Assembly: GCA_030062745.1 (NCBI GenBank)
Contig: CP099839.1
Location: forward strand, 43,784,796-43,848,795
DNA: 64,000 bases
Direction: 5' to 3'
Source: Capitulum mitella
Taxonomy: Eukaryota; Arthropoda; Thecostraca; Pollicipedomorpha; Pollicipedidae
Position 1 is the stretch's first letter. Every line of letters begins with the position of its first letter. The notes beneath the pieces are model-generated. The model saw only the letters and a list, made by a program, of their open reading frames with translations. It did not search any database and was not told the DNA's origin. Both the position numbers and the translations under genes were made by a program. Of this stretch, positions 1-58,600 are shown in pieces.

Positions 1-3000
1 ACGAGTCCGGCGGCAAGGATGCGCCATCCTCCGAGAAGACGGCTACCAAGGTACCTCTCATTGCGGAGAAGCCTCGGAAGAGCCTGCTGAGACCAGAGTG
101 GGAGGAGGCGCGGCAGAAGCGAAAGGTAACCGCTGTGAAACACGGTTCCTTATCTTTGAGGAATTCGTGTGCTTGGTTGCCGTTGATTGTTAAATATTCG
201 TCGATTTTGAGCCAAGTTTCCTGATTTTCGTCGTTCATGCGCCTCCAGACGGCGGTTCGCCGCATGCACCCGGTGCCTGGCGAGTCGCCTCTGCTCACGA
301 GCCGCCGATGTCTCTCAGCAGGCGGCTGCTCGGGCCGGCCCAGGCGAGGGCTACGAGCCTGGCTACGGGCGTCACATGTCCATGCTGGAGCCCGACTACG
401 AGGAGTACGACGAGGAGATGGCCGGCATGGGCCACCAGCGCTTCAAGCGGCGCCGCATGGACCGGACCATGCACAAGTCGCCCGCCATCTGCAGCTACTT
501 CATGCAGGGCAAGTGTCAGAAGGTGAGTGACACCGCCGGTCTTCTACTAGGTGTGCCAAAACGCATTTTGGCTCCGCACTGCTGTTATCTGCTGTGTCCG
601 TTTTATCCATCTTCTGTAATCCGCCGTTAAAATTCCATGTGTATTTCATATGCTCCCATGTATATATGTACACTGTACGCTTCCGAACTCTCAGGGCTTC
701 GTCTACGGAATTTTGGCGGGGGGGGGGACAGGCCTTCCGACCTGGTATTCCAGTAGCACCTACCTACTATGGGGGGGCAAAAATGGAAACACGAAGATTT
801 GCATACATCTTAATGTGGCCCCTAGGAGCAAGATTGTGTTGCATTGTCTAGAATGGTTCACTACGCGGGACTCGCGTTTTTTAAACCTGGCGTTTTTGGC
901 CTTGAAACTGATCTTTTTCACGATTGACCCTCTTAATCGTTTAAACCACACTAACCATATGTTTTGATCCCCGCCAGTTCAAACGTGGCCATGCATTTTG
1001 CTCCAGATGGCCTCGTTGACCTTTCGGTGCAGTTTGCGGTTCAAAGACGTACCAACAGAAACATTTTTATTAAAGAAGTGGGGCCAAGTCCGTTGGACCA
1101 TGTTGTTAATGCATCGTTCAGAAGATAAACTCGAACTAGGTAACAATGGCTGCTACATAATACACATGATAACCGCATGCGGCAAGAAGCAAGGAATATC
1201 TTACAATAACATCATTTAACATGATGCAATTTGTTTACAAAACTGGCCCCATAGCTATGCACGACTTCATCGAGTTTTGCTTTACCACGTCTTTTTCATG
1301 CAGTGCTACAGTCAAAGTTAACTTTCGCGAAACTCAGAGGAAAACACCCCATTCTGGTCAGGCCAATGACACATATCACTATGTTGCTGCAATGCTTGAC
1401 GGGCTGTGTTTTTTTGGGGGGGGGGGACGCTAGGAACACCTAAATGATTTGCAGGTACAATTTTAGGTCTCCTGGGCGAGACTATGTTCCTATGGTGTTC
1501 CGAACTTCCCAAGACACTAGCCTCTGCAGAGTCAGTATGTGAATGATTACGAAGGTAGAGGTTGTTTCGTGAGAGATAAGGATCTCTTTGCAATGATGCA
1601 AAGGGATGCGAAACATTGCTGCTTGCAAGTACAAGACTGAAGACATCTACACTTCACGTCATGACGAATAAAGTTTTATATGCAGCACTAGAACAATTAC
1701 AGGAAAAATCAATAATGGTATAGATAAGACGACGAACGAATGAATGGTGCTTGCAAGAAGAAGACTGTAGACATGTACACTCCAGTTTTGTGACCAGTAA
1801 ACCAAGCCCTCCATTGACTGGGCAGGGATTTAACGCCCCCCCCCCCGCACACTTTTTGGATGTCTCCCAAACGAATAAACGGAGAGTCTTGAAATTTTTC
1901 CTTACCCATTCTTGAATTTTTGGTACCCATTCTTGAATTAATTGCGCACATACTGACGAAAATTTGGAAATGAGGTCATCTTAGGTCACGTCGTAATGAC
2001 GTCTTAAAGACATACATGTTTTACGTTTTGACGTCCAATTTTACTTCTCCGCCATATTGTCGGTGCTTTTACAATATATGGTGTGGGTTCCATGTCAGCA
2101 AGAGCTAAAAGTGTCATATGGAGCATCCCTGACCTCATGCTCTCTCATCCTGGGTCAAGTATGTATTTTGCACTTTCCTGCTCCAGTGAGAATACATTTT
2201 AGCAGAGGAACTAAATGAATTGATTTCTGGACACGGCGAGATAGATTATCAGTATTTTTTTGCACCATATTGCACGTACAACTTGCACACCAGCGTCTCC
2301 AACAGCGCAACATTTCTTGCAGTATGACCTTTGGCGGGTTTATGCAAATTTCAACGTAGCGAGTAAACTGGTGCCGTACGTTTGACGTTCTGGGTCACCG
2401 GTGCGGAGATTTCGGCCTTGATAACGCTGGGCAACATTCCGTGAAAATGTGCATTATGTGACTAATTGACTTGAAGGGTCAACCAGAGGTGGCAGATGGA
2501 GTTCACTAGCGTGCTTGTGCTCTTCCGAGTTCAGAATTACGGAATGTTGCTATGTTGCATGTGCACGGTAATTCAAGCCTGTTCTTGTGCCCAAAGCTAC
2601 TTTCATGTGTGTTTCTTTTTAGAATGTCTGTGTCAGATGGGCCGCAAAAAAATGCAATGCATGACCCTTGATCACAGACGTGAAATTTGACCCGGTATAT
2701 GACCTCGGCCTTTGATGACCTTGGACCAGGTATCACTGAGAATATGAGATGAAGCTGCCAGAAACATATGGTAATAGATGCGGGAAGCGGGGGGGGGGGG
2801 GCACCCCGCCCAGGTTTTCCGAAGCTTAACATTGACCCTGTGGGCGTTGACTGGGAAGAATTGACCCAAGATGCTTCTTTGCTCCCCCATCTGTTGAGGA
2901 GTTCCGGCGACCCTGCATATGGTCACGCCAACGTCATTTGCCATCTGCTTTTCATTGCGATTAGGCAACTCTGGAGAAAAGGGCTTCTTTTGGGTATTTA

Positions 3001-6000
3001 CCCTGATCTGTGACGTCATCAGTGACCAGAGGAAAAAATCGATGTCACAGGACTGCACGGTTCGACACTATAGATTGATGTTTGAATCAGCCCAGTGGGG
3101 CAGTTGGTTCTGGGAGGAGGCGTTAAACGCGTCTCGCCCCCCCCCCCACTTCCTGGGGTATTTCGTCACCTTCCGGTCAGTGGAAGGTGACGAAATACCC
3201 CACTCATTGCTGGGTTGAACAGAAGTTAGCATTACGAGATTTGTCAGAAATTACTTTTTTAGTCTCTTTAAGCTAAAAGTCCCATTCCTTCTTTCATGTG
3301 ACAGGGTTGTATAACGTTCTGCCCTTCCCGTCGTAACGTTCTGTCACGTATTGGACGACTCCCCCACCCTCTCCCAGCGTTACATGACTTTCGGACCTCC
3401 CTTTATGACCTCAAACGCATGAGATTCGATTGAAAATTCCTCAAGATTAGACTCGGACTCATACGCCGACTTAGACAGGACGAAGTCAGAACCAGATGTG
3501 GTTTAAGAATACGTTCATCCCAAATTACAGTTGCCTTCAGGTACATTAAACTTCAGAGTAATGGCAAAGAGACGAATAACACGGATGGAACCATACTGAC
3601 ATCTGAGCATAGCGGGCGATCCCGTTGTGATGGGGCCTGAACCCCCTTCCCCCCAGTATCCAGGGATTTTAACCGTAGGCCTTTGACAGTGACTGGAAAG
3701 AAATGATCTGAAAACCTATGTGGACCCCTCCTCCCAATCATTTTCGAAAATGATTACATCTTACCTCTTAGCTCATGTCAACCCTTGTAATCAGCGTTGA
3801 TTTAAGTGTATGTTAGGCTCAGACAATTTTCATTTTTATGGAAAAGTGACATACCCTGAGTTCTGTTTTTGTGTCTGGTATAGTGCCAGCATTATTTGCA
3901 TAAGGTTTCTTTCTACCACCACATGGTAGAAATATGAAATAACGACAAATTAGAAAAGCAGGCTAGGCTAGGAAGAGGTCATCTTTATGCATGTTCGTGA
4001 TCTTGCTCACGCCTGTATATTTACAGCGTACAAAATGTAAATACAGTGGTCGTAGTACGCAGCAATCTTGTTTATTTGTGAGTTTGGACGCACAGCCTGT
4101 TGGGCTTAGGCGTCCATTGCCAAAGAGCAACATTTCATTTTCAAGGCAAAAATGCATGATTGAACAAAGGCCAGTCCTTCGGAAGGAGACCACTGAGAGA
4201 AAGGACAGACCTGATTTCCTGGGTCTGGCAGAATAAAAGTGTTTTTATAGACCGTTTTTTCTTTGCGTCTGACGTATTATGTACCCAGTCCTTTTCCCCT
4301 CATATTTCAACCACGTTGTTTTGGGTTTTTTCTCTCCGATGTAATCGCAGGATAAAAAATGTGACCAGCATATTTCATTTGAATACGCTACTATTCAAGG
4401 GCACGAAAATGTGATGAAGCATTTTTTGCACGGGCTGCGCGTGGGGAAAAATCGGATTTCTCCTCTGAAAATCCTGCATTTGCTGTACTAGCACACATAC
4501 TTTATTTACTTAATAACGCTGCGTTTGTATATACTACCACTTTTGATGCAAGCATAAACGAAAAAAACGGATGGACGAGGCATTTTTCCAGTGACTTCTG
4601 AAAAATGGCAAAAAATGGCATCTAAAGAAATGTTAAGTTTCCGCAAAAAAACGTAGATATTAGGTTTTATGACTTCAAACATTCTCACTGCCCCTGCCCC
4701 CTTCTGTTTTGTCTTGAACGGTGGGGGGGACACTGGTGACTCCACTGCGGGCCTGAGCCCCCGAGTTAACATGTTACACGAGGCCCTGCAAACCCTTGTA
4801 AGCACATAGCACTGCACAATGTAATGCACGCATATCAGACATGTTCTATTTTACAAATTCCCTCGTCCCGCGATTCAGTGGTCCACTCAGCAGGCTTGTA
4901 CTTGACTTCGAATAGGTTCGAATGTTTTTTGAATTGATTGGGTAACGTCACACAGTTGCCGTGAATCAGAATCAGAATCGATTCAACTGAAAACTGTAGT
5001 GAATCAGAATCAGAATCGGGTCGCTGACGTGGTGCAGTTCAGTCATTTGGTCATCAGTGAATCAGAATTAAAACATTTCACCTTTTTTAAAAGCCGCTGT
5101 GAATCAGAATCAGAATAAACTTCCAGCTTGGTGAATCAGGAGGTGAACTGATCCACTTGGGTTGAATCGAGGTCAAGCCTGTTACCCAGTTGACTGCGAA
5201 TACGAAGATACTTTAAACCGTCTTAACCGTCTTAAAGAAGATACTTTAAACCGCCTTTTAAGAACCACAGTGCCATTTAAAGGAAAGCTGTTTTGATTTG
5301 TGCTTTATGTCAGCTCATGCTAGATATTACTGAACAAGCTGAGACATGCTTGTGCACGACGTGCTGTCATCTCGCGTATCACCACGCCATTGGTCCACGA
5401 CACATACTTTCAGCGTAAGACATTGTTGTTAAATTGGTTGTGTTTGCAGGGACGAATGTGCTCGTTTTCTCATAACGCCATCCCGCCGAGGAAGATGGAG
5501 CTGTGCAAGTTTTACCTTATGAACTGTTGTGCCAAAAAGGAGAAATGCCTCTACTTACACAAGGGATTCCCCTGCAAGTTCTACCAAACGGGCGCCAAGT
5601 GTTTCGTCGACGAGAAGTGCAAATTCAGTCACGAACCACTCACCGATGTTACTAGGTCCATCCTGCTTAAGGTGAGATTACAAGATATTGCTTTTTAGAC
5701 GCGCTTCACGTATGACCGGTTTGCTTTGCTGCTAGTTCCGATTCCGCTCAGATTTGTCAGTATATTTATTGGGAGTTCATAATTGGAACAATAGATGGCG
5801 CTGCGCTTCACGCTTTAATTTGTTCTCGATAGATGTAACTTCTCATATCTCTCCTGACCTCGCTCGTTATTTGTCTCTCCTCTTGATACACTTATATGAT
5901 AAATGAACAGCTGTCTGGCTAATAGTTAAAGGTTTTCTGTGCAACCGATTTTCATTTCATTTTGCAGCAGCGCCGTTGTTTTTATGTCGCTGCGGATCCT

Positions 6001-11535: not shown

Positions 11536-14500
11536 TCACTGAGCGAGCGCCTTCTCCACGAGACTCTCGTCCTGGACCCGGTGGGCTCGGGTGACGTTGA
11601 GCCTCGGCTCTGCCTCCATGGCTCGCGTGATGGCCAGGTCGGCGTTGTCGTTCCCTGACCAGCTCCTGCGGACAGCAGACACGGCCGTCAGACGACTGCG
11701 CTGCGGCCCTCAAGTCCAGGGGCGGCACGCTGCGGACACCGCCGGCGCGGCGGCGTGCGGCGACACTCAGGGATGTTTCACTGTTGGCAAACACCAAGCA
11801 TGCCGTATGTGCGGCGCTGAGACCGCTTTAATGGCTAAATTCCACTGTGTGATAACAGGGATAACGGAGCGGTAAACGAGGGCACGGCTGTCGCTCTATA
11901 CGCAGACGCCAAACAGGTGATGAAATTTCGACCAAGAAGACTTTCAGGTGGCCTTGTCACTGCCAGGTGGGCTCGAAGAGCTTGATAGTGGCAACACGAC
12001 CAGGACAAATCAAACAGTCGCCTTACGGTAGGTCCTTGTGGACTGCGAACACTGTGAGGACATGCGGCAGCACTAGCACTGATCACTGTGCACATGAGAC
12101 CATGAGACAGAGGACATGAACAGTCACCTCCTGGCTATGCCGTTGTTGACGTCCCAGTGCAGCATGCTCCTGGCCCGGCTGGCAGCGTCATCTGACCCGT
12201 CCAACACCATCCCGAACCCTCCGTTCATCACCTCGCCCCTGCAACAAAATGGAGCCACCCCGGTGCGGCATCACAGGTCAGTTTTGTCCTACAAATTATC
12301 ACTGTAAAGGTAACCCGGACGTCTGAAGTGCATGCCGCTGGAATCAGGGTTCATACTAACGAATCCAAGCACGTGACGGGGCCGCCTAAGAGGAAGAAAT
12401 CATACAGGGGGTCGAAACGCAGCGACGACCTACTCTTAGCTTTCATGCTTCCCCTTTCGCTAATCGGTCGCCTGGTGGTCCTTGAACAACATACTGATTC
12501 AACAGCATACACCAGGTATCTCTGGGGACTACCCACCAGCCGACCCCGCCGCCGTTGTGCAGCGAGACCCAGGTGGCGCCGCGGAAGGCGTCTCCGATGC
12601 AGTTCTGCACGGACATGTCGGCCGTGAAGGCCGAGCCGTCGAACACGTTGGACGTCTCGCGGTAGGGCGAGTCGGTGCCACTAACGTCATGGTGGTCCCG
12701 ACTGATGATCACGGGACCCTGCAGGCGGAGAGAGCGAGCGGTGTACTCGCCCCAAGGCTGGCCGGCCGCGCCAATTTAGCCCCCGCGCCAACCCCTTAAA
12801 AGGTTGTCCACTTTATCATTACTAGCAACAGACAAAGAACGGACTTCGTTGTGGATCTCTGAGCTGTTTCTGCGTAAAAAGTCAGTGATTTGACAAAAAA
12901 AACAAGACTCATCTCCAACGCAGGCTGGCAAACAATGCGCGCCTGCCAAACCACCAGGATAAAAAATGCCCCCAGAAAACACAATCTCGAAGAAAGTCGT
13001 ACGCAAGGCTACACCAGCCGCAGGGACACTGTTGATCTGAGAGGCTCTGTCGGTAAACAATGGAGCAATGTGTCTTTGCGGGCTCTCCGTGGCCACGCAG
13101 TGCCCGCGGTGGACAGGCGGACCACACCTGCAGAGTACCGTCTCGGACGGCCTCGTTGAAGGCGAGCGCCATGGCCGAGCGGCCCCGGCAGTCGGAGTAG
13201 AGGATGCGGGCCTGCGATCCGACGACCAGACGGTGCTGGCCGGCCTCTCGGATCCAGCGCAGGTTGTCTCGGTACTGCTGCAGCACCGGGGTCGGCAGGT
13301 CGTCTGCAAGCGCCCGACATAGGTAATAGCTCATTGGAGGGACGTAAGGGCACCTCGACTTTTTGGCCGTGAGGCCCCGGCCGGAGAGCATTTAGAAATG
13401 GCTTAAAAGGGCGCATAATGAAGGCCAGAAAATGCTAAAAGACGAACTGAAGCTGGCTACGGATTGTTTATTCCCAGTGCGCTGGTTAAACTCACGCTTG
13501 TAATTCTTTTGTTCCCTTTAAAATGAAACACAAACTGCTCAAAAGTTACTACTTGTCCACCAAAAATTGCATCAAGCTTTTGCCCTACCGTTACGCCCAC
13601 CTGCCATGATGTCTTCCATGACGCGCTGAGCAATGCGGTCGGTGGCGGCCAGGTCGGCCGGCTCGCCGGAGGTGCACACCCAACGGAACGGGCCGAACCC
13701 CAGGCTGAAGATGTCGCCCATGATGTCCTGCACGTAGCTGGGGTAGCGGAAGCGCAGGCCGCTCGGGTCGCCGGCGCGGCCGACGTCGGCGCCGGCGCGG
13801 CCGGCCTCCAACAAGAAGGCGTTGCCGTAGTCCCAGAAGGCCATGCCGTGCTCGGCCAAGTAGTTGATGGCAGCCACCTTGGCGGACGAGCGACTCCTGG
13901 ACGAGCCGGCGGAACTCGTCTGGCCGCTCGGCCAGCAGCCGCCGCGCCGCCTCGTATTCCAGCTGCACCGGGTAGTAGCCGCCCGAGAACGGCGCGTGGC
14001 ACGAGGTCTGGTCCGAGCCGAGGTCCACCAGCAGCTCACCGGAGGCCCGGTGCTCCTCCACCATGCGCTCCCACACCGCCACCGCATTGCCGTGGAAGCC
14101 GATGCTGGTGGGGCGGCGCTCGGCGCGCGCGGCGCGCACGCGCGCCACCAGCTGGTCCATGTCGTCGATCACCTCGTCCAACCAGCCCTGGGCGTGTCGT
14201 TTGTCGATGGCGTCGCGGCTGACCTCGACGACGACGCCGATGCAGCCGCTGATGGTGGCCGCCTTGGCCTGGGCGCCGCTCATGCCGCCCAAGCCTGAGG
14301 TGAGGAGGACGCGGCCGGCGAGGTCGGCGGAGCCCAGGTACCGGCGGCCGGCGTTCAGCACCGTCAGCTGGGCAACGGGCGGGCGGCAGCGGTCAGCGGC
14401 GGCACCCGACCGGCCTCAGAGGGAGACGCACGAGACATCGAATCGTTTCCTTCGAGTATCACCGCTACGCTGCTGTTAATTTTGTAATCAGCTGATAATC

Positions 14501-30177: not shown

Positions 30178-30243
30178 ACGTCACTGCGTCAGCGACATTA
30201 ATTCACTGAGCATTCATCGCACACACACAACAGCTCTAACACA

Positions 30244-31265
30244 ATGGACATCACGCCTAGGAAGCGGACGAAGATTTTTACTTTATTCGAACATTCTGAG
30301 AAGTCACAGAGAGAGATCGCTAAGATAGCTGGTGTCAGTCAGCACTCAGTCTCACGGATTATAAAACAAGGAGTTACTACTGGATCTCTGTCACCAAAAC
30401 GAAAAGGGAATTGTGGAAGAAAACGAAAAACGACGCCGAGAGATGATCTGTATTCGATACGTCAAAGCAAACTTGCACCACGAAAGACTAGTAATGATCT
30501 GCAAAAAAATCTAGCCGGATCTGGAATTAGTGTAAGTTCGAGCACTGTTCGAAGGAGGCTTCTCGGTACCAGTCGGAGGGCTCACAGACCACTAGAAAAA
30601 CAACTTCTTACAGAGAAAATGAAGGCTAAACGTTTGTTATGGGCAAAAAAAATACCGGCACTGGACAAAGGAAGACTGGCGGAAGGTCATGTTTTCGGAC
30701 GAAAGCCATTTTTTCGTTCAGGGACAGAGGAGTCAACATGTCCGACGCTCTCCTGGTGAGAAAGTCCGTGAAGGCCACATGAACCAAACCGTGAAACACC
30801 CCGAAAAGAAAATGTTTTGGGGTTGTTTCAGTTTCCGTGGCGTGGGATCACTTCATCCTGTCGAAGGAATGATGAAATCTGCCCAATACATCGACGTGAT
30901 ACGGAGAAAGGCGATTCCAGACATGCAGAAGGCGTTTCCAGATGGTTCAGGGGTTTTTCAACAGGACCTGGCTCCTTGCCATACGTCGAAGATTGTGACC
31001 AATTTTTTTCAAAATAAACAAGATAAATGTTTTGGACTATCCGGGAAACTCGCCGGATTTAAATCCTAGAGAAAATTTATGGTCTATCATAAAGACTTGT
31101 CTCCGCAAAAAGGATTGTACAACCAAAACCAAGCTGATACAAGCCATAATTCAGGTCTGGTACCACGACGAACAGATAAAAGAAAACTGCAAAAACTTGA
31201 TAGATTCCATGCCCAAGCGGGTTTCACAAGTGGTAGACAATAGCGGTGGTCATACTACGTATTAA
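30244..31265 (+). pseudogene. Tc1-like DD34E transposase, broken by two 1-bp insertions
   Basis: The frame starts MDITPRKRTKIFTLFEHSEK at 30244. A helix-turn-helix (QREIAKIAGVSQHSVSRIIK) follows, then a basic GRKRK patch and a second DNA-binding part. The catalytic triad is visible as MFSDESHFF, QQDLAPCHTS and SPDLNPRENLW; about 34 residues separate the second Asp from the Glu once the frame is followed. The frame shifts near 30646-30653 (eight A where seven would keep KK-YRHW in register) and again near 31020 (one extra G before ATAAATGTTTTGG). Apart from these it is well preserved to VDNSGGHTTY, so loss is recent or the shifts are sequence errors. Confidence 0.88.
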
Positions 31266-42100: not shown

Positions 42101-45100
42101 CTTTTGACCGAGACGTGGCCTGCGCGAGAAACAAGCTGTTGACTCGCTCCACTGTTTATCGACCATCATTCTCAGGGCTCTTTCGACAGCCGACAGTTGG
42201 CGCCAGTTTTAGTACAGTGGAGGTTTCGCGCCGGTTTTCGTGCTGCCGGATTTGGCATCGCTTTTGGTTTTTAATTTGGCATCATCTCCTAAACTGAGAA
42301 AAATGAGCGTAGACGTCATGCCTATTGAAATTCAGTGGCAGAATTGGTTGCTTCGAGTGGTCATCCCTTCCCATGTCCCCAAGGATTCGGAAAGTACCAG
42401 AAATGTGATTCTTTCAAGTAAGTGGAGCAGCTAATGCTGTGTTCCAAATGTGACATACTTGGCTCAATACAAGAAACGTTGCTAATATTCTGCATCAAGC
42501 AGGGTACAAGCGCTTACATGCAGTTTATTGTTAGTGATATTAAAGAATGTTTTATCGTATGGAAATATTACTTTATTAGTGAAACATTTTTCATTCACGC
42601 CTTCGACGGAGGCGACCTCATAGGCCCGAATGGTCTCTCAGTTGTTCACTAACGAATCACCTCAGGGCTACTCGGTATCAAATACAGTAGCAGACTTTTA
42701 CGTCATTCAGGTAAAAATATTTTGGGTGAATTTCTGTTTGATCTGTCCGTCAATCGCGCTAGAAACATCTCATGTCTGGTGGTACGTTATCTCAAAATTA
42801 AGACACGTTTAACTGTGCTCCCGGCAGGGGGCTGAATGCACCCTCCTCTAGTTTTTTACTTGCCAAATCAAGGGTTTTTGACGGAGCTAAGCGAAACTTG
42901 CTGACTTTTCCTTTCTATTCCCTCTACTTAATGGGACAAAAATTCGAAATTCCGTTTTATTCGGGGGCGGAGCCAGGCAACGTTTTTTGGAGGCCATTTT
43001 TGGCCCTGTTCAGGGTGAAAGGAAAATGACTGCCAAAACTGGCATTTTTAGGATAGAACTTAAAACCTTATATGAATGTATAGCTAAATAGTTGGGCAAC
43101 GTGCAAATACAATTTTGTTCATCTGAGGTCACTTTACAAGGTCAGGTCAAGATCAGTTTAAAACTTGGTTTTATGGTAATAGTTTCAGAGCTATGTTTTG
43201 AAATGCCAAACCCAGAATATATATGACATAGCAGAGTGCCCTCTACTTCTGTATTAAATTTCAGCTTGATATAGGTCGGGTCACGGAGTTATGACCTGAA
43301 ATGTCAGTACCGGTACCTTATAAGCCGTAAAATCGTTTTTTTAATATAATGAATTCAAATGATTGAAAACGTTTACAGATATGACATGAGATCATTCCAA
43401 GTGACTCTAGGGTCACTGTAGGTCATTTAAGGTCAAAGGTCACAAGTTGATCTGAAGAGCATGTTACCATGACTGTTCCCCTTTTTTCATGTACCCGGCA
43501 CCTATGCTAACATTAAACAACCATTGTAATACGATTTGTATTTCTTAGTCATAACATGACTAGCAGAAGCCAAAAAAGTGTTTTTACCCTTTTCAGTTGT
43601 TGAAAAACTAATTCTCCTATTTTTGAAATCCTGTGTACGCCGACGAATTTTCTCGAAATTTCAAATGTATGTACCAATGTTAAAACTCTCATTCATAATC
43701 TCTCGATTCATGCCCTCGATTCATGCCAATTTTATCGAAATCGATCCATAAACAACGGAGTTATAGGAAGTCCAGAAGTCCCCAATTTTGGCATTTTTGC
43801 TCCCCTGTACCCATCCCTTTCAAAATTTTGGAAACTTCGTTTTGTAAAATGTAGTTTACATCATGGTAAATCGATTGCCGTTTGTTGCGATGAAATCGGA
43901 TGTATCGTTTTTGAGATCTCAGGGGGAGGGGGCGAATCCACCCCCTGAGGAAATCGACCATACCGTCTAGCCCTCCGGGAATAGGGTGCAACAAGTACAA
44001 TACTGAAATATTGCTCCACCTCCGATAACAAATCGTAGAAATTCTGTAACACCGTGAAATAGCCTGTTGGCGCTTAAGATCAGTTTTCATAACATGTTCC
44101 CTCTTTCTTTGCGAAGATTGTACGGATAACAATATTTTAACAGTAAGAGACAAGTCGAAATAAAATCGAACATCACCTTAATGTCTGAGGTAACGCTGCG
44201 TCCAAGAAAACTTCACACGGGTAAGAAACCATTTTTATGCCTAAAATGCATAACTGCGAGAAGAAAATCTCACATGGAAGAAAGACTGACATCTCTAAAG
44301 CATTATGAAAACAACGGGATAGATTTCTGGGTTCTCACCAGTCCAAACGCCAGACTAGCATGGTAATGATGCAATAGTTTTATCGCCGCTCTAAGGAAAT
44401 CTGTACTGGGAGTGCACCCGCATTTAGTGTTGGGACTTTTTGCATCCCTTCTGATTCTTTGTGGAAAACTGATAACGTGTCCATAAAAATCAGAATGATT
44501 GCTTTATGACATCTAAGTTCTTGTCTGTGTGACGCCTGAGCGCTCTGGAACGACTGACATACCTGGGGCAAGCCTACACAAGGCCAAGTTATGCATTGCC
44601 CTAACTGTGCTTCACGGTGCTCGATGTCCCAGTTACATAGGTGGGCATCGTTACTAAAAAATGCAACTTCGTTACTCGTTACTCCGTTACTCAGAAAAGC
44701 CAGTCCGTTACTCGTTACTCCGTTACTATGCTTTAAAAAGTAACGGAAATTACCGTTACTCCGTTATTCCGTTACTTTTTTAAATGCAGTGAAAACCAAG
44801 CGAACGCGGGTTTTAAGTCTTTTATGTTGCTTTGTGGTTGTAAAACGCATTCCATATACAAAGGGAAGAAACAAAAAGCGCTTACCCAAAACACTCCGCT
44901 AGCTGCCCACTGCCCTCACCAGCCGTTGTAGAGTCGGCGGCGCCGGGACAACAGCCGCGGCGGGTATTCTACCCCTGTGTTAGCCACAATGGTCAAACCA
45001 ACGAATTCCTTTTCATTGCCCGCGGCGCCGACGGAGCGGGAACAACCGGCGCTGGAGCGGACGCATGCAAAATGCGACAAACAGCGAACATCTATCGACT

Positions 45101-48100
45101 GGGTTTGATCAACAATGCCTCTCGAAGTATCCGCCCTGAACATAATGGTCTCCGTTCAGAGCTCGTTTCGGTCTCGCGAACTTCTTGTTTTGTTTTGAAA
45201 TTATGTGTGTGTATTAGTTTGTGTACGAGCGCGTGCGTGGAGGTAAGATTCCTGATACCCCTGACGTTTTTTTAATACCAAACGACGAAGGACTCAAAAA
45301 AAACATGACTGATATGGATTTTATTATTGTGAAATAAAAGACTAAAAAAAGGTGCTTTAGTACCTCCTCAGCACCCTTGAAAAGACAAATTAGCTATAAA
45401 AACATGGTCATAAGTAAGATGCAACGGAGGATGTTAGCCGTTCACAAGTGGAACATTTTGGAACGATGACGTGACCTGACCTGACCCCTGTGAAAGGCCA
45501 AAATTGATATCAATGAACTCGCTATTGTCTTACGGTTCAGTATATGTCGCTTAAGTTCAGCTTTTCAGGGACAGGGTACTGTGTCTATTTACCTAATTCC
45601 AAGGACGTGTTTTGACCTTTCATGGCGTCTGGTAGCCTCAAAATTGATCTGAGGTCAAAACTCTTGAATGTTTTCGTCTCGGTTTGACAAAACCTTTCTG
45701 CCGGTGTTTTCCTTTTTTCCGTGCGATATATGGGAGCCGAGATCCTGGGAGGTGCGGAAATCCGCGCTCCCCCTCCGGCCGGGCAAAGGGCATTCTGAGC
45801 CCGGCCGGAGACGGGTTAAAAACACGTCATTTAACCCTATTCCCTGTGGGGGGGGGCAGATTTTGCTACCCGTGTCTTTTTGCTTGTCCCACACTGTTTG
45901 CCGCAGCGCCAGAAGATTTTCTGGCATTTCATGGAATTGATACACACGTGTTTTGTCAACATTTAAAAAAAAATCGGTCCCGCAGGGGCGGTTCCAAGCC
46001 CCGTTTTCGGCGGTAATGTGCTGTGCGTGAAGCTGCAAAGTTGTGCGGTTCACTATCGTGGCATTCTGAGTAGAAATAAAGATCACTGACTCATTTATAT
46101 AGTCATACGCATCCTAAACAATGCGTATGCACACACATTTTCAGGCGAACGCACACCCAGGTACTGAAAAAATGGGGGAGCACACTATTGTGCTTATGGT
46201 GCCCTCCCAATTTTGTTTACCTGGATCCACCTCTGCGCTACATATAAACTTAAACTGGCTTGCTAGTTGTACATCTGATGTTTATATCACCCAAAACAAA
46301 CAAAAACAAAGGAAATTTCTTATTTAAAAAATCACCCTTCTTGCCCTTCCTGGAACTGCCTATGGTTTTCTATTTTAAATTTCAGCTTTCGGCATATAAA
46401 AGACTCGGACATTCCAAGCTGAACCGTGTTATTCCCATGAAAATTGGTTGGTAAACACGGCCGCAGTGACCTTTCAAAAATCTCCAAATTTTGAAGTTTG
46501 TTTGCCCCCACGCCCTATTTTCGCAATTTTTGAATTTTTGGGGTCCGGAATTGGAGATCTCGTTGAAACATCTTAACTGGCATTCATCCCATCAACATTG
46601 GACGAATGCATCTCGAGATCTCTGGAAGGGCGGGGAGGGGAGGGGGCAGAATTGGTAATCTTCGCCTTTCGGCCAATGCATATTTTTCGAAGGTGCAAAA
46701 GTGGCAACGGCTCATATCATGTTTGAGTTTGGGTCTTCACTGCTGCGTCTACAAAAAATAATGTGTCAGCCAAAAGGTGTTTCTGCCAGTTGATATTTTT
46801 TTCGGGAACGCAGGAGTGGTAACTCGAATCGCATGGACAATGTAGCCTGTCCTACAAGTTAAAAATGATTTAACCTAACCTAACCTAAAACCTACTGTAT
46901 GGTTGCGGGGATTGCCCTAGATGGGCATGTAAAACTAATTTTTTATTAGGTTCAATTTGCCTGTTTTTTGGTTTGGTTAGCTCGTATCGGCTGAAGGCAA
47001 ACATGTGTCAACTGAATCAAAATTCAAGGGTTACCTAACCAAGTCAGTTTACACATCCAGTAAGGGCCAGTGCTTAGAAAAATACCTGAATGGGCTAAAT
47101 TTTTCACACAACTTGTGTTGCCACTTCCGCGTCTCCAAAAATTACGCGTAAGCGTCGGCCGAAAGGTAGATTACCGCAGATCTGCCCCCCCCCCCCAGGG
47201 TAATGTGAATCTCACTGCCTGCAGAGAATATGGTTAAGGCAAATAGTCCAAGCAATAGTCGACAAGTTTCATAATTATGCTTCACTACTGACAACTTATT
47301 GTGCACATTCTGTTCACACCTGGAAATACCGTAAATAATGCTTCCTCTTGATATGTGCCTTTAGGTTTGAAAGGCTACTCTTGTGACCCTTGATTATAAC
47401 CTCTTTCGGTCTGCACAGGACATACGTAAAAATGACGTTTTCCCCCTCCTCCTTAAACTCAAAGTACGTTTCTAGATGTGGCCATGGGTGACCCAGACCG
47501 GGCTCGTCCTCTGCCTCCGAGGCTGAGGCACCGTCGGACTCGGAGTCAAGGTTTTCGACCTCCAGTGACGACGTAAAGACGCCTTGATGGGACATTTTAG
47601 TGTCGGGCAGTTAAAATTTCAGGCCAGTCAAGAATCAATCACCACTCCATCGCCCCATGGACATCACAGATCCAAGGCCATGGAGGCAGTAATCATGTGC
47701 TCAACAGCCTTGAATGATCTTGGCGGGGAACCGTGTGGCGGTGGTAAGCAATCCGTGACTAACTTGAGACAACATTGAAAACTGCCGTCAGCTGGCTGTT
47801 CCAGTATAAATGGCAATAACTTTGATATCTTTTAGCTTGAAAAATGACGACTGGTTAATTTATAATTTTAAGCATAGGTGGGCATCCTTACTAAAAAATG
47901 TAACTTCGTTACTCGTTACTCCGTTACTAAAAAAAGCCAGTCCGTTACTCGTTACTCCGTTACTCTGCCTTAAAAAGTAACGGAAGTTACCGTTACTCCG
48001 TTATTCCGTTACTTTTTTAAATGCAGTGAAAACTAGGCGAACGCGGGTTTTAAGTCTTTTATGCTGCTTTGTGGTTGTAAAACGCATTCCATATACAAAG

Positions 48101-51100
48101 GGAAGAAACAAAGAGCGCTTACCCAAAACACTCCGCTAGCTGCTCCCTGCCCTCACCAGCCGTTGCAGAGTCGGCGGCGCCGGGACAACAGCCGCGGCGG
48201 GTATTCTACCACTGTGTTAGCCACAATGTTCAAACCAACGAATTCCTGTTCATTGCCCGCGGCGCCGACGGAGCGGGAACAACCGGCGCTGGAGCGGACG
48301 CATGCAGAATGTGACAACAGCGGACATCCATCGACTGGGTTTGATCAACAATGCCTCTCGAAGTATCCGCCCTGAACATAATGGTCTCCGTTCAGAGCTC
48401 GTTTCGGTCTCGCGAACTTCTTGTTTTGTTTTGGAATTATGTGTGTGTATTAGTTTGTGTACGAGCGCGTGCGTGGAGGTAAGATTCCTGATACCCCTGA
48501 CGTTTTTTTAATACCAAACGACGAAGGACTCAAAAAAACATGACTGATATGGATTTTATTATTGTGAAATAAAAGACTAAAAAAAGGTGCTTTAGTACCT
48601 CTTCAGCACCCTTGAAAAGACAAATTAACTATAAAAACATGGTCATAAGTAAGATGCAACGGAGGATGTTAACCGTTCACAAGTGGAACATTTTGGAACG
48701 ATGACGTGACCTGACCTGGCCCCTGTGAAAGACCAAAATTGATATCAATGAACTCGCTATTGTCTTACGGTTCAGTATATGTCGCTTAAGTTCAGCTTTT
48801 CAGGGACAAGGTATTGTGTCTATTTACCTAATTCCAAGGACGTGTTTTGACCTTTCATGGCGTCTGGTGGCCTCAAAATTGACCTGAGGTCAAAACTCTT
48901 GAATGTTTTCGTCTCGGTTTGACAAAACCTTTCCGCCGGTGTTTTCCTTTTTTCCGTGCGATATATGGGAGCCGAGATCCTGGGAGGTGCGGAAATCCGC
49001 GCTCCCCCTCCGGCCGGGCAAAGGGCATTCTGAGCCCGGCCGAAGACGGGTTTAAAAATACTTCATTTAACCCTATTCCCTGTTGGGGGGGGGGGGGGCA
49101 GATTCTACTACCCGTGTCTTTTTGCTTGTCGCTCCCACACTGTTTGCCGCAGCGCCACAAGATTTTCTGGCATTTCATGAAATTCATACACACGTGTTTT
49201 GTCACCATTTAAAAAAAAAATCGGTCCCGCAGAGGCGGTTCCAAGCCCCCGTTTTCGGCGGTAATGTGCTGTGCGTGAAGCTGCAAAGTTGTGCGGCTCA
49301 CTATCGTGACATTCTGAGTAGAAATGATTGATTGATATTGGATTTTGAGGCGTGCCTCGACCTTTTGGTCATTATGCGCCGCCTGTCAAGTCTGTGTGAG
49401 TTACGTTACGTTAGAGTGTATGTGGCGATTTTAAAGATAGCGCAAGTGTTTCATTTAACGTTACAGGTTGAAAGAGCAATGGACACAAGTGCTTTTTACG
49501 TTAAGTTGTGTGTGTGACAAAAAATTTTGGATGCCGCTGAGATCGGCATGGTGGGGGGCCTCCGTGAAGCGGGGCAAGATGCGCAGGGGGAAGAGGAAGG
49601 GAGTCGCCGCCTCTTTTACTGTCAGCTACGTTACTTTGAGCCCTCCTCAAAAACTAGGAATTTAGGATTTAGATTTGATTTTGCCAAGGTGCCGGCACGT
49701 GGCCTACTCCTCGCGAAAAGCACCGAGGGGTCTTTATCGTGCAGGCTAGGAGGAGATTGCCCACACTGCCTCTCACGCTGGCTAAGCGTTCACCCTCTCA
49801 CGCCGGGTGTTGCGGAAGAAAGGAAGGAGTGAGAAGGATGTGCGGTGTTGTGTGGCGTTAGAGTTTTTCTGCTAGGTGTGTGTCATTTAAGTACGTGAAT
49901 AGCAGCTGTAGAAGGTCTGGGTGCTGGTTACCCAGTAGGGTACCCAGGGTGAGCTGAATGTTCTTTTGTTGGCAGAAGGCCTTAATGGGTCGTCTTTGTG
50001 TTTCGAAATCCCTACATTCCAGCAGGAGGTGATTTACGTTAAGTGGTGTGTTGCATGTGTGGCATTGTGGTGCTTGGTAAGAGCCGTCCTCTAAGAGTGG
50101 TTGTGTGCATTGTGTGCGACCCGTTCTAAGTCTGGTGAGGACGACTTCTTGGCGCCTGTATTTTTGATTTGATGTGTCCCAGGCGCCAAGTGTGGGTTTG
50201 ATATCGTACAGGTGTGCGTGGTGATTTTGTGTCCAGGTTTTCTATTGGTGTTTACGGATGTGTTGTTGCAGGGCGGCCTTGCAGTCGTCGAGTGAAAATT
50301 TGGTGTCAAAGCATGTGTCAAATGCTAGTGACTGTTTCGCAACCTGGTCTGCTCAGTAGAAATAAAGATCACTGACTCATTTATATAGTCATACACATCC
50401 TAAACAATGCGTATGCACACACATTTTCAGGCGAACGCACACCCAGGTACTGAAAAAATGGGGGAGCACACTATTGTTCTTATGGTGCACTCCCAATTTT
50501 GTTTACCTGGATCCACCTCTGCGCTGCATATAAACTTAAACTGGCCTGCTAGTTGTACATATGATGTTTATATCAGCCGAAACAAACAAAAACAAAGGAA
50601 ATTTCTTATTTCAAAAATCACCCTTCTTGCCCTTCCTGGAACTGCCTATGGTTTTCTATTTTAAATTTCAGCTTTCGGTATATAAAAGACTTGGACATTC
50701 CAAGCTGAACCGTGTTATTCCCATGAAAATTGGTTGGTAAACACGGCCGCAGTGACCTTTCAAAAATCCCCAAATTTTGGGGTTTGTTTGCCCCCACGCC
50801 CTATTTTTGCAGTTTTTGAACTTTTGGGGTCCGGAACTAGAGATCTCGTTGAAACATGTTAAATGGCATTTATCCCATCAACATTGCACGAATGCATCTC
50901 GAGATCTCTGGAAGGGCGGGGAGGGGAGGGGGCAGAATTGGTAATCTTCACCTTTCGGCCAATGCATATTTTTCGAAGGTGCAAAAGTGGCAACGGCTCA
51001 TATCATGTTTGAGTTTGGGTCCTCACTTCTGCGTCTACAAAAAATAATGTGTCAGCCGAAAGTTCTTTCGGCCAGTTGATATTTTTTTCGGGAACGCAGG

Positions 51101-54100
51101 AGTGGTAACTCGAATCGCATGGACTATGTAGCCTGTCCTCCAAGTTAAAAATGATTTAACCTAACCTAACCTAAAACCTACTGCATGGTTGCAGGAATTG
51201 CCCTAGATGGGCATGTAAAACTAATTTTTTGCTAGGTTCAATTTGCCTGTTTTTTGGTTTGGTTAGCTCGTATCGGCTGAAGGCAAACATGTGTCAACTG
51301 AATCAAAATTCAAGAGTTACCTAACCAAGTCAGTTTACACATCCAGTAGGGGCCAGTGCTTAGAAAAATACCTGAACGGGCTAAATTGTTCACACAACTT
51401 GTGTTGCCACTTCCGCGTCTCCAAAAATTACGCGTAAGCGTCGGCCGAAAGGTAGATTACCGCAGATCTGCCCCCCCCCCAGGGTAATGTGAATCTCACT
51501 GCCCGCAGAGAATATGGTTAAGGCAAATAGTCCAAGCAATTGTCGACAAGCTTCATAATTATGCTTCACTACTGACAACTTATTGTGCACATTCTGTTCT
51601 CACCTGAAAATACCGTAAATAATGCTTCCTCTTGATATGTGCCTTTAGTTTGAAAGGCGTCTCTTGTGACCCTTGATTATAACCTCTTTCGGTCGGCACA
51701 GGACATATGTAAAAATGACGTTTTTCCCCTCCTCCTTAACCCGCGCACGACCGTCGGTCCGTCCCGAACACCGTCGACTGGGGGGGGGGGCAGTTGACTG
51801 CCCCCCCCTCTAACTCACGAACGGTTGGTCGCACGATAAAAATAAGCATACCGTTGGAAAGCCCGTCACGAGTAGAGCTCGAAACTGGTCTCATTTTTAG
51901 TTTTAGATAATATGTAAGCCAATTTACGCCCTATATATGTTTTCTCATAGCCGACTGCATGAGACCGAGAAATGGCCTGAATCTCAAGGGCTGTGACTAA
52001 TAACGCATAGGTAAAAGCACCAGCGCACAAGTAAATGTCCGCGGATGCCGATACACGTCTAATTTCCTCAGATTTGTTCAATATATACGCCGAAACGTTG
52101 AGTTAAAGACACCGTAATTCTCCCGTCAGGCGTCACTGTGCGCCGCTGCCGTATGCGGTACCAAATTGACGGGAACTAATTTTAGCGTTCCTTTATTTTC
52201 GCGAAAAAAAACGATCTTTGTCAGTTTTATTGATCTTTGTGGTTCTTGTGATGGTTTCTCGTGCTTAAATTTTGGAAAAAATGATTAGTTACCAATCTAC
52301 AAAGTTGGCGGAGCTTTATTCGCGAGAGCCTGTTTATTTCCAAAATATGCTACTTTTTCAAACTTTTTGAGGTTCCTGGTATTACGTATGTGTGTGCAAG
52401 CTAGTTCTGCCATTTTCTACCCATTCTGAGTAATTCATGGTCGATTTTGACGGTGGTACATTTTGGCCCACTTCAGTTATTCGTGACCTGACCTCAGGTC
52501 AATGGCTGGAAGTCACTGATACTTTGCCCAATGACGGTAACTAGATGTCTGCTTCACTCCACACTAAAAATGTGATGAAATATTCCGTCAATTTCCGAAA
52601 AAACGGCGATATGTCTTAAAAATGGGCTTGACCTTAGGTCAATGACCCGGAAAATTCCGAAAAATCTGAGATAGCAAATTTGTTGCATCTATCACGATCA
52701 CTAATCCCTGAAAGTATTACTGAGATATCTTGTTCTGCGAAAACGTTAGAGGGCGCTAAACTTTTTTTTGACATAGGTCTGCGTGACCTGTCCTAGGTCA
52801 GGCACGTGACCTGACCTAAGGTCAAAATTTTTACACAAGACGTAAAATTGATGGAGCAAAAGGTACACAAAGTTTTGTGAATCTGTGTTAGTTCGTTCTC
52901 TCGCAATCCCAGAAAAACCTCAGGGGGGGCAGTCAACTGCCCCCCCCCAGTCGGGGACGGGTTAAACTCAAAGTACGTTTCTAGATGTGGCCATGGGTGT
53001 CCCAGACCGGGCTCGTCCTCTGCCTCCGAAGCTGAGGCACCGTCGGACTCGGAGTCAAGGTTTTCGACCTCCAGTGGCGGCGTAAAGACGCCTTGATGGG
53101 ACATTTTAGTGTCAGGTAGTTAAAATTTCAGGCCAGTCAAGAATCAATCACCACTCCATCGCCCCATGGACATTACAGATCCAAGGCCATGGCGGCAGTA
53201 ATCATGTGCTCAACAGCCTTGAGTAATCTTGGCGGGGTACCGTGTGGCGGTGGTAAGCAATCCGTGACTAACGTGAGACAACATTGAAAACTGCCCTCAG
53301 CTGGCTGTTCTAGTATAAATGACAATAACTTTGGTATTTTTTAGCCTGAAAAATGACGATTTTAATTTAATGGTTAATTTATAATTTTTAGTCATATCTT
53401 ACGCATAATTCAATACTTTTGTCCTAAAAGAGACCAAAGTCAGCTGGCCTTTATACTGAACCATTGCCGCCAGCTTGCCGTCAACGTTTATCAGCTGACG
53501 AATATTGTCAGCAAGTCCACTCCGCGATTGTCAGCTGAGTGCGCGCCCAGCCGCGCTTGTATCGCCACACGCTATTGGGTGGTGGCTATCCAAGTAGCCA
53601 ATGGCGTGTGCCGATGCAAATAAAGCCGGGCGGTGTCTGTAAGGAGTTTAAAAAGTAACGGAGTAACGAAGTAACGGACCAAAAAGTAACGGTGTAACGG
53701 ACCACAAAAGTAACTTCCGTTACTCAGTCCGTTACAGTAAAATAAAAGTAACGGGTCCGTTACTCCGTTACTCAAAAAAGTAACTTCGTTAGTAACGGAG
53801 TAACGGAGTAACGGACCAGTGCCCACCTATGATTTTAAGTCATATCAAACTTACGCATAATTCAATACTTTTGTCCCAAAAGAGACCAAAGTCAGCTGGC
53901 CTTTATACTGAACGATTGCCGCAAGCTTGCCGTCAACGTTTATCAGCTGACGAATATTGTCAACAAGTCGACTCCGCGATTGTCAGCTGAGTGCGCGCCC
54001 AGCCGCGCTTGTATCGCCGCACGCTATTGGGTGTTGGCTATTCAAGTAGCCAATGGCGTGTGCCGATGCAAATAAAGCCGGGCGGTGTCTGTAAGGAGTT

Positions 54101-55490
54101 TAAAAAGTAACGGAGTAACGGAGTAACGGACCAAAAAGTAACGGAGTAACGGACCACAAAAGTAACTTCCGTTACTCCGTCCGTTACAGTAAAATAAAAG
54201 TAACGGGTCCGTTACTCCGTTACTCAAAAAAGTAACTTCGTTAGTAACGGAGTAACGGAGTAACGGACCAGTGCCCACCTATGCCGAGTTAGAAGAGCTG
54301 TCTCCCCACCAAGGCAAGGAGGATTTACGTTCGTCTCGGCGCAAGAGTTAACGCCAACCGGGCAGGAGAAGATGCTAGAAAGCTGCCGTACCTTTCAAAT
54401 CCGCGAGTTCAGCCTGACACACAATCATAAAGTTACACCTTGCCAGTTTCATAGCAATTGTGAGTGAACGCACATTGTTTGCCTTCCAGATGCATCTATA
54501 GCGCTTGACGGCCTTATAAACAACTATTCACCCGACAACGTCTTCAAAGAGAGCTACAGGGCGTCTCCTACAGCGAGATCAATAGAAGTAAGCTACAAGT
54601 CCATGATATCCGACTACATGAGATCCGGCTCCTGGCCAGTCGCAAACGAGTCAGCGATGGTGACTGGCCTTGCAAATTAGCCGATGTATGTCTGGCCACC
54701 AGACGCCGGCTCGGCGGCCCTGTTTAACCGGCCGCCGTGTGCCGCAGCAGGAGCGGAACCTCAGCAAGCTGCTGTACAACTTCTCCAGCAGCCCGTCACC
54801 GACGGTGCGCGCCATCCGCGGCTCCGGCTCCGGCTGCGGCTCCGGCTCCGGGTCCGGCTCCAGCTCGTCCTACATCAGGCAGGCTGAGACGGGCAGTCCC
54901 ACGCTGGAGCAGGCCATCCTGATGGGTTGCCGCGACTTCCGCAGTCCCTCGCCGGCCTCTGACACCAGCGGTGTCGGCACCATCAACAGCAGCGACGGCT
55001 CCATGCTTTCCGACCTCATGGTGAGCGTTCCAGTCTCGAAGCAACTGATAACGGTTTCTAAGATCACGGTGAGGGCATGACTTCTACCTAGAGCTGAAAC
55101 TGGCGTTCGCAGAGAGAGGTTTCCGTGATTCGAACCTCTCGGCGAGTGAACGGAGCTCTGGGCTCTGCTTATTGAGAAGACCAAAGCTGCTTCATCTGTA
55201 AAAACGTGATCGTGTTGCCAGTCATGCCATGCCCTGTCAGTGTGCTCCGGCACCAAATCTGGATTTGCAGAAATCACCATTCGGTCTAACCTTTCAGACG
55301 CTGATCCGAATTTTCGGGTCACAACAAAGTGCTGCCTTCTCTCACATTGCAGGTTATCTTGCGAGCCCTCTGTCGGGGCTCCGTGGAACGCCGTGATGAT
55401 GACTTTCATTGCACGCCGTCCATTTGTTTCCAGAACAGCTTGAACATCGGCTACAGTGGCGGTGGAGGCAGCGGTGGCGGCGGCAGGCCC

Positions 55491-55522
<32 letters not shown>

Positions 55523-55616
55523 GGGTGGCGGTAGTCTGCAGGTGTCCGGGGTTCCGGTGAGCTTGCAGTCGCTGCTGGGGCCGCGCCGGCTACCACTTCC
55601 TGCCGAGTTTGACCTG

Positions 55617-55656
<40 letters not shown>

Positions 55657-58600
55657 GCTACCCGCCGGCGCGGGCCGCCTCGCCGCGCGCCGGCTGGCCG
55701 GCCATCAGTGCAGGGGCGGCTCCGACGGCGGGTCTGGCCAGAGACCAGCGAGCCATCGAGCAGGCGGCCAAGCAGCACCGCAGCGCCGCCTCCGTCTACG
55801 ACGCCACCTGCACCTGGTCTGGCCAGCTGCCCAGGAAGGAGCACAGAAACCCGGTGTACTCGTGCAAGGTGGGCGCGCCTCGGCCGCCGCCGTCCGGCGG
55901 CCGACCCGTACCGGAGCTCGGTCGGGCCCGGGGGGGACTGGTCTCGGTAACGCAAATGACCAAAGATGCACGAGGGTACAGATGATTTTAGGGCTGTCGT
56001 GGCATTGTTCTCTGTTTCATGCGCCACATGGGTGTAGAACTGAGACAAATTTTACTATGGAAAAATAAATTTGTGTAACCCTAAAATGTGAGATTGGTAA
56101 CGTTTTTTTTTACATAACTTGATTTCATCAAGCAAAAAACATATGAGTAAGTAAAAAACAATGCTACGGAATTCCATACCAAGTTTTTTTGGCATGGAAA
56201 GCTCCGTACCAAAAATATACAAAGTTGGACCCCTGGTGCGTCGCGAATATCGTGGTTTGATGAAAGCTCATCCATAATTGCAAAGCGTATTCGTAATTCG
56301 GATTTTGTGTCCTGTATGAGAGATTGGGTGAGAAAATAGGAGTGAATAAAGAGCAACATCGGTCGAACATACAATGTGATACTAGCTCACAGAGCAGCCT
56401 CTTCCTGTTCCTCATGAACTCTCTTACCTATGCTGTTCACTCTCCTCGCGGCTGAACATTGGACTTTGTCTAGAAGTAGTTCCGAAACAGAAGCGTTGTG
56501 CGAGGCCCGGTCAGCGTCAGCTCTGCCAGTGGCGGACGGCTGGGCCTGTGGCTGCGGCTGTGGCTGCGAGGCCCGGTCAGCGTCAGCTCTGCCAGTGGCG
56601 GACGGCTGGGCCTGTGACTGCGGCTGCGGCCGCTCCGCCGCAGGCCAGGTCGCCGCTCCCACGCGCCGTGCCCGCCGCCGGCAGGTGTTCCTGGGCGGCG
56701 TTCCATGGGACATCACTGAATCTGCCCTGGCCTTCGCCTTCAGGCCATTCGGTCCCATTCGGGTCGAGTGGCCTGGCAAGGATAGCAACGGCAATCCTCC
56801 CAAAGGCTACGTATATGTTCTGTTCGAGTCTGAAAAACAGGTGAAGGCAATGCTTGAGGCGTGCACGTACGACTTGGGAAACAGCAGCAACTGCTACTTC
56901 AAGATCTCGTCTAGGCGTATGAGGTCCAAGGAGGTAAGATAATCGTCGATTTGTAGTCATTTTCAATGTTATGTTGCCTCTCTGACACTTCGTTTTTGAA
57001 ATGCAGCCGCCATCGGGCCGCGGTCCAATTTACTGCATAATATCACGCGAAATGTAGAGCCAAAGCTATGCCTTTTCCATTTCAACAGAACTATAATCTG
57101 CTCCTCAGCCTTCATTTACTTTCCTCTCGCGGGCAGCGTGAGTTGCAGGTGCTGTAAATCGCAGGCTCAGGTGATCATCCCCTCCTGTCAGATGCAAGTG
57201 CGGGCGATGCTCCGGACGAGAGCCGGTGCTGCTGGTCGCAGTGCAGGTGATGCCCAGCGCTGTCACTCGCAGGTACAGGCGACTCCCTGGGTGACACCCC
57301 GTGCTGTCGTTCTCAGGTACAGGTGATTCCCTGGGTGATCGCGGACAGCAACTATGTGCGCTGTCCGTCCCAGCGGCTCGACTCTCAGATGACGGTGTTT
57401 GTGGGCGCCCTGCACGGCATGCTCACGGCCGAGGCCCTGGCGCGCATCATGAACGACCTGTTCGGCGGCGTCGTCTACGCAGGTCTGGCAGTCTCCGCCC
57501 GCCCTGGCCCCAACACTGTGGGTCGGCTGCGGCTCCGGGTCCCATTGGTCACTGAGGTCAGCGCCACCCCGAGTCTCGGTGGTAACGTGGGCTATTAGCA
57601 CCCTCGAGTCCCAGTGGTAACTGAGGTCAGTCACGCCCCCTGAGTCCCAGTGGTAACGTGGGTTATCAGCCACCGGGGCCGATCGAAAGCATGGGTCAGG
57701 CGCGGCATTGAGGCACGTCGGTATTGCGAGCGCACCAGTCAAGATCGTTTCAGGCGTGATCGACCCGTTTGGGTCGGCCCAACCATTGATTATTCGTTTA
57801 ACTTTATCGCAGTTTCTTTGATTCTCAAGGTTACGGGCTCTTTGGAATAACACGACCGGCACGAGTGGACACGTACCCTTCGGTTTTGTTATAATTTTGT
57901 TGATAAACATGCTATTCATGCAAGGCGATTGCTCAAATGTTCCATTATTTCGTTTCGCACAGTTTCAAGCCGTACATGAGCAGCACAGCACGTGGCCAAT
58001 GCTGTGCACCCGGAAATGGAAAGGGCATGTTGTTCTGCGATCCTGACTGCTACCGGCGTTCCTGTCGCCAACTGAGGTGACGGCTGTTCGTTGCAGGCAT
58101 AGACACGGACAAGCACAAGTACCCGATCGGGTCCGGCAGAGTGACTTTCAACAACCAAAAGTCATTCATGAAGGCTGTGGCGGCCGCTTTTGTCGAGATC
58201 AAGGCGCTCAAGTTCACCAAGAAGGTTGGTGGTCGGACAGTGCTGGACGTGCGCTCCTGCCAGATTCCTCAGTCGTACCAGACTCTCATTCGGTCAGCAA
58301 CGAAACCATTGCATTGTTTCATGTGCACGTGCCAGAGCGGAAAAGCGATACCAAGTGTTGCGGCCTGCGCTAAGTTATCGTGGCAACATATTCCTCACTA
58401 TGTAATAACTCTAGAATAAGTTAAGTGCGAGTTTGCTTCAATCTGCCGCCACGAGACGCTACAAGAAGTGACGCTCTGTCTCGACATCACACATACAGGG
58501 TCCCCGAACTGGTCATCCACCATGTGTGCTGACGCCACACTCCTGCCCGTCGGCCGCAGGTGCAGATCGACCCGTACCTGGAGGACTCTCTGTGCTCGGT

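Follow-up and report, generated by a model that had tools for sequence, protein, structure and literature searches.

A hAT-like transposon inside another copy of itself in Capitulum mitella: a reused internal site and a more divergent copy inside a less divergent one

What happened at a locus where a transposon lies inside a copy of its own family: in which order did the two copies arrive, how old is each of them, and why was that internal spot hit? These questions are raised by a stretch of 64,000 nucleotides from Capitulum mitella (contig CP099839.1, positions 43,784,796 to 43,848,795), which is called the window below; all positions are counted from its first letter.

Architecture of the nest

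A sequence-only reading of the window had described a hAT-like element that was interrupted by a second copy of itself, with the target-site duplications of both insertions preserved. The coordinates, ends and duplications given there proved correct, and the nest consists of the following parts:

44628..44635, unstranded: left 8-bp target-site duplication of the outer element, CCCAGTTA (7/8 against the right copy)
44636..47872, plus strand: left part of the outer element, element positions 1-3237, beginning with CATAGGTGGGCA
44648..44776, unstranded: left subterminal repeats of the outer copy, CCGTTACT / AGTAACGG
47865..47872, unstranded: left-hand ATTTTAAG flanking the inner insertion, at outer-copy positions 3230-3237
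47873..53831, plus strand: inner element in the orientation of the outer one, 5959 bp with two inserts and 3695 bp net
53832..53839, unstranded: right ATTTTAAG of the inner insertion (8/8 against the left copy)
53840..54283, plus strand: right part of the outer element, element positions 3238-3681, ending with TGCCCACCTATG
54284..54291, unstranded: right 8-bp duplication of the outer element, CCGAGTTA (7/8 against CCCAGTTA)

The outer element spans 44636-54283 and measures 3681 bp net when 44636-47872 is joined to 53840-54283; the inner copy splits it after element position 3237, 444 bp from its right end. Joined in this way, the outer copy runs collinear over its full length with the inner copy once the two inserts of the latter are taken out. 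Removal of the inner element with one ATTTTAAG had been said to restore such a collinear sequence, and in the alignment, which used looser insert borders, 3542 of 3668 positions are identical (126 mismatches, K2P 3.5%), with 13 gap events, two of which come from the loose borders. The identity is thus 96.6%, and with corrected insert borders the two net lengths agree, as had been reported (3681 bp for the outer copy and 3695 bp for the inner one, for which looser borders give 3701 and 3691 bp). The two units share their ends, and a genome search returned further copies with 8-bp duplications and the same boundaries. Since the two copies match from one end to the other and family members with identical termini are found at many loci, a chance origin of the nest is excluded, and its description as a self-nest of one family stands. 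The order of the two insertions, outer and then inner, is forced by the topology; the single mismatch in the outer duplication, against none in the inner one, agrees with it.

The element family

A first look at the genome (477 Mb in 16 contigs) with two different parts of the element gave 672 and 693 candidates, of which 40 were scored each time, the copy number being rough. Twenty-three loci were fetched, 20 of them from the search that used the outer copy. Perfect 8-bp duplications were found at 20 of the 23 loci, including L016, L029 and L030, for which a match is little informative since they sit in pure (TA)n tracts; the exceptions are L019 (7/8), L020 (out of register, with a damaged left end) and L018 (without a right end). 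The family ends are 12-bp terminal inverted repeats, CATAGGTGGGCA / TGCCCACCTATG, and the CCGTTACT/AGTAACGG motifs are clustered near both termini, within 150 bp of the left and 185 bp of the right one, as putative transposase-binding repeats of the kind present in the hAT superfamily.

An N-terminal BED zinc finger is common in the hAT superfamily, albeit not universal. A candidate remnant of such a domain lies in the outer copy:

47314..47610, minus strand: BED-zinc-finger-like exon remnant with Tyr at the first Cys of CxxC (zf-BED, E = 0.04)

This match is below the Pfam cut-off and covers only the C-terminal half of the domain; the sequence closes a minus-strand open stretch toward the right end of the element and had no match in NCBIfam. 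YVLC stands in place of CxxC in 21 of 23 aligned rows, the stretch being unreadable in L014 and in the window inner copy. All that a structure-database search returned were weak matches to PP2A regulatory subunits (E at least 0.31), which were taken as chance. The exon is probably the 5' coding exon of a lost transposase gene. No hAT dimerisation domain was found in the five open reading frames scanned of the 20 listed for the nest, and no transposase or autonomous copy was seen among the copies studied. The 8-bp duplications together with the BED-finger-like sequence point to a non-autonomous, high-copy hAT-like DNA transposon of ~3.68 kb, and the earlier label "hAT-like" fits the family-wide 8-bp duplications, the 12-bp inverted repeats, the two-sided subterminal repeats and the degenerate, sub-threshold BED-like exon.

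It should be noted that, judged by eye from the right flank of L011 and the flanks of L022, these two copies seem to be situated within or at the border of one other repeat, which in L011 begins with CATAGGCGGTGCC and so resembles the hAT-like end.

Inserts in the inner copy and neighbouring genes

Two insertions of other kinds are contained in the inner copy:

49317..49325, unstranded: left 9-bp duplication of the LINE, AGTAGAAAT
49326..50354, minus strand: LINE fragment, probably 5'-truncated, with a minus-strand tail of CAAT repeats at its left end
50355..50363, unstranded: right 9-bp duplication of the LINE, AGTAGAAAT
51736..52965, unstranded: TTAA element including its duplications, in the BED-like exon of the inner copy

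The LINE fragment matched zf-RVT with E = 0.14, below the cut-off. The body of the TTAA element (51740-52961) has TTAA on each side and a 33-bp inverted match (94%) close to its ends, and by this duplication and these terminal inverted repeats it would be classed as piggyBac-like. Its relatives (69–89% identical) occur near the hAT-like copies L012 (also L005), L017, L018 and L024; at L012 and L024 they extend past the hAT-like copy in both directions, so each family inserts into the other. The order of events had been given as outer, inner, and then LINE and TTAA element. Its first part is the one forced by the topology, whereas the later arrival of the two inserts is not established: the inner copy is the older one by divergence (see below), so the inserts may predate the nest, and the inner copy may have carried both of them into it.

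To the right of the nest lie exons of a CPEB1/Orb-type gene (55305-56942, plus strand), with CEBP1_N (E = 3e-9) ~1.4 kb and RRM_7 (E = 3.5e-27) ~2.4 kb rightward of the nest, which may be located in an intron of this gene or upstream of it. Elsewhere in the window there are a coding stretch for urocanase (urocanate hydratase) at 13591-14415 on the minus strand (E = 5e-55) and a Tc1-like transposase remnant at 30202-31069 on the plus strand, where the first open stretch matches HTH_Tnp_Tc3_2 (E = 1e-12) and the second, overlapping one has no Pfam match.

A second nest at the same internal site

When as many as three mismatches are allowed, the right-hand junction of the nest (element end, ATTTTAAG and TCATATC) is matched at two genomic places and no more, namely the window and locus L022 on contig C12, with no hit for a control pattern. 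The left junction has an exact match in the window only. Among its 14 other matches, all at three mismatches, two on contig C14 were fetched and are not nests, two on contig C13 belong to L027 and L037, and the ten unfetched ones look like chance flanks. L027 (C13, 844.7 kb) and L037 (C13, 827.5 kb) lie 17 kb apart in opposite orientation, and their identical right-hand 8 bp and flank suggest an inverted duplication of the locus. The C14 pair, whose hits are 5.5 kb apart, had looked like a third nest and turned out to be two separate copies in opposite orientation.

L022 consists of a whole element, then ATTTTAAG, then a second copy of the right end, and the outer duplication around it, AGAGCATG, is perfect. 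The first of its elements is recombinant: alleles diagnostic for L026/L028 are present at 10 of 11 such columns within alignment columns 440-1326, and at none of 23 within columns 1667-3658 (Fisher p = 8e-8 against the left stretch). The extra right end carries the L026/L028 allele at all three diagnostic columns, which rules out that it was copied from the outer right end in the window. Judged by these alleles, L022 reads as a collapsed nest in which the same 8 bp were hit in an outer copy of a different subfamily. A nest with both copies in one orientation, formed within an L026/L028-type element, would leave such a chimera after recombination between its two left arms.

None of the 22 other fetched loci lies inside another copy within the fetched flanks, nor does any of 37 further copies with readable right flanks (40 were fetched; L061, L062 and L067 have no readable right end). 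For this family and among the copies sampled, the earlier remark that a self-nest can seldom be read so clearly is fair, L022 being the sole other nest and a collapsed one.

Choice of the internal site

Target preference was assessed on 59 sites, L037 being dropped since it has the same right-hand 8 bp and flank as L027. TATATA is present in the first 12 bp of flank at 15 of these sites, as compared with 0.5% of background 12-mers from the same flanks, and the AT content climbs from 52% at a distance of 140–280 bp to 68% in the duplicated 8 bp. No strict target motif was found in 20 sites, where no position exceeded 0.46 bit. A 3-mer target model was trained with the nest site kept out; in it this site ranks 22nd among 3649 positions of the element, and 19th of 3649 when sites with TATATA are left out of the model; ranked on AT content and nothing else, it falls in the top 0.5% over 20 bp but no higher than the top 4% over 40 bp, and on a flexibility scale in the top 2%. 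A general preference for TA-rich DNA, together with the rank of 22, makes a hotspot created by this preference the likeliest explanation of the repeated hit. The probability that two inserts share one position is 0.1–2% under the 3-mer models, against 0.03% under uniform insertion and before orientation is counted, so the preference explains much of the coincidence, perhaps not all of it.

The remainder might be ascribed to self-homing, with the transposase complex on the subterminal repeats of a resident copy steering incoming copies to a fixed spot and orientation. Two independent self-nests at element positions 3230-3237, both in the same orientation and inward of the right subterminal repeat array, are what this process would yield, and under uniform insertion any given position has a probability of only ~1/3649. 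However, there are two events in all, self-nests are infrequent (the 37 further right flanks gave none, and ~1.8 are expected at random for 690 copies), and composition also puts the nest site among the best general targets, which leaves self-homing unlikely. We hold it to be quite improbable that this is a hAT-like element with a fixed 8-bp self-landing spot and orientation, whose direct-repeat nests collapse to possibly mobile elements with a doubled right end.

Relative ages of the nested copies

Trees were built without L011 (right end rearranged) and L018 (right end missing), and L022 was split at its breakpoint with columns 1327 to 1667 omitted. The terminal branches are 0.60% for the outer and 1.89% for the inner copy in the window nest, and 0.39% for the outer and 1.65% for the inner part of L022, so that in both nests the private branch of the inner copy is three- to fourfold longer than that of its host. 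In the window the private changes number 15 in the outer and 56 in the inner copy, of 3556 columns (binomial p = 1e-6). A compact group of young copies includes the outer one, which is 1.0% from L009 and L010, while the best relative of the inner copy is at 97% among the 40 scored of 693 candidates; it is the lack of a closer relative among these 40 that makes the inner copy appear old. This sibling search covered the window inner copy, the branch of the L022 inner part being drawn from the tree sample alone. As 20 of the 23 loci came from the search with the outer copy, siblings of that copy are favoured and its private branch is shortened.

Since the topology makes the inner copy the later arrival and the branches make it the older sequence, the simplest reading is a remobilised old copy: in both nests, old copies with working ends were probably excised and reinserted, and the one in the window probably arrived with ~1.3% private change already. 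The same contrast would result, with no remobilisation of the inner copy, if gene conversion had overwritten an old outer copy with young subfamily sequence, and copies of this family do recombine, L022 itself being a recombinant. Against this, L009 or L010 is nearest to the outer copy in nine of ten alignment intervals of 400 columns (one of the nine is tied with L017, and the last interval is nearest to L012), conversion would be needed on both sides of the 6-kb interruption, and the second nest shows the same branch contrast. No mosaic of old and young alleles was seen in the outer copy at the present sampling, and we think it improbable that conversion produced the contrast.

Probable independence of the two nests

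The inner part of L022 differs from the inner copy in the window at 76 of 2033 positions (3.7%), so that the two nests are most likely separate insertions of different copies. The tree does group the L022 inner part with L027 and the window inner copy, though at a support of only 20. One ancestral nest could instead have given rise to both if its inner copy, together with the ATTTTAAG duplication, had spread to another outer copy by ectopic gene conversion; site and orientation are indeed identical in the two nests, and the outer flanks offer homology on each side. A divergence of 3.7% between the inner parts disfavours such a spread, being more than twice what the outer terminal branches (0.39–0.60%) allow, and each inner part is closer to other copies than to its counterpart, so that we consider a common origin of the nests very unlikely. 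An assembly or duplication artefact, that is, a tandem duplication of one element, is hardly credible, even if the doubled right end has the form of a 452-bp tandem repeat, as the junctions coincide precisely with the ends of the element and show an 8-bp duplication, the duplicated 8 bp are single in un-nested copies such as L010 and L024, and the window copies are 3.4% apart and placed in different subfamilies.

Proposed history

With a probability of roughly 80%, we favour a history in which a hAT-like outer element received a remobilised older copy in a TA-rich spot, and in which a nest at the same site in L022 later collapsed. In this scenario, an element of ~3.68 kb with the ends CATAGGTGGGCA...TGCCCACCTATG would have inserted near the CPEB1-type gene. 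A divergent, older copy of the family would have been excised elsewhere by transposase supplied in trans and pasted, in the same orientation, into an AT-rich site of the outer copy, 444 bp short of its right end, the TA-rich preference making this internal spot one of the best targets that the family presumably offers to itself. Another copy, on a different contig (L022), would have been struck at the identical 8 bp, and homologous recombination between the direct-repeat left arms may then have removed one of them, so that a 4.2-kb element whose right end is doubled would be left.

Nests serve as clocks, and the two nests described here set topological order against sequence divergence. Both illustrate that the latest move of a cut-and-paste element is not necessarily dated by its divergence, and the nest suggests renewed movement of old copies rather than a simple clock. 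The repeated strike at one internal site ties a general DNA preference to the damage that a family does to itself, and L022 suggests recombination as a clean-up route for same-orientation nests. The repeated site and the old-in-young order are features of moderate interest.

Comparison with known systems

In the classical double Ds of maize, the copies are nested in opposite orientation. The family described here resembles maize Ac/Ds in its 8-bp duplications, short terminal inverted repeats and subterminal repeats, and in the presence of a non-autonomous copy within a copy of its own family, whereas its ends and host are different and its nest is in the same orientation and accompanied by a collapsed derivative. 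According to one maize study, one Ds-l4 is nested in a Ds-l3, nesting of the Ds type is rarer than that of LTR elements, probably as nested Ds break chromosomes, and the chromosome-breaking double Ds was not found in B73 (PMC3260210). In the open PMC literature searched, maize Ds is the one precedent found for self-nesting in a hAT family.

With respect to target choice, another report states that Ds and Tol2 have no strict motif and favour flexible target DNA (PMC4825651); the present family likewise shows no strict motif and resembles them in using flexible targets, with a strong over-representation of TATATA (15 of 59 sites). A preference for (TA)n microsatellites is shared with MITEs of pineapple, which are Mutator-related and produce 9/10-bp duplications as opposed to the 8-bp ones found here (PMC8449440). 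A nest whose copies share one orientation and which later collapses is a variation on the theme of self-nesting known from Ds.
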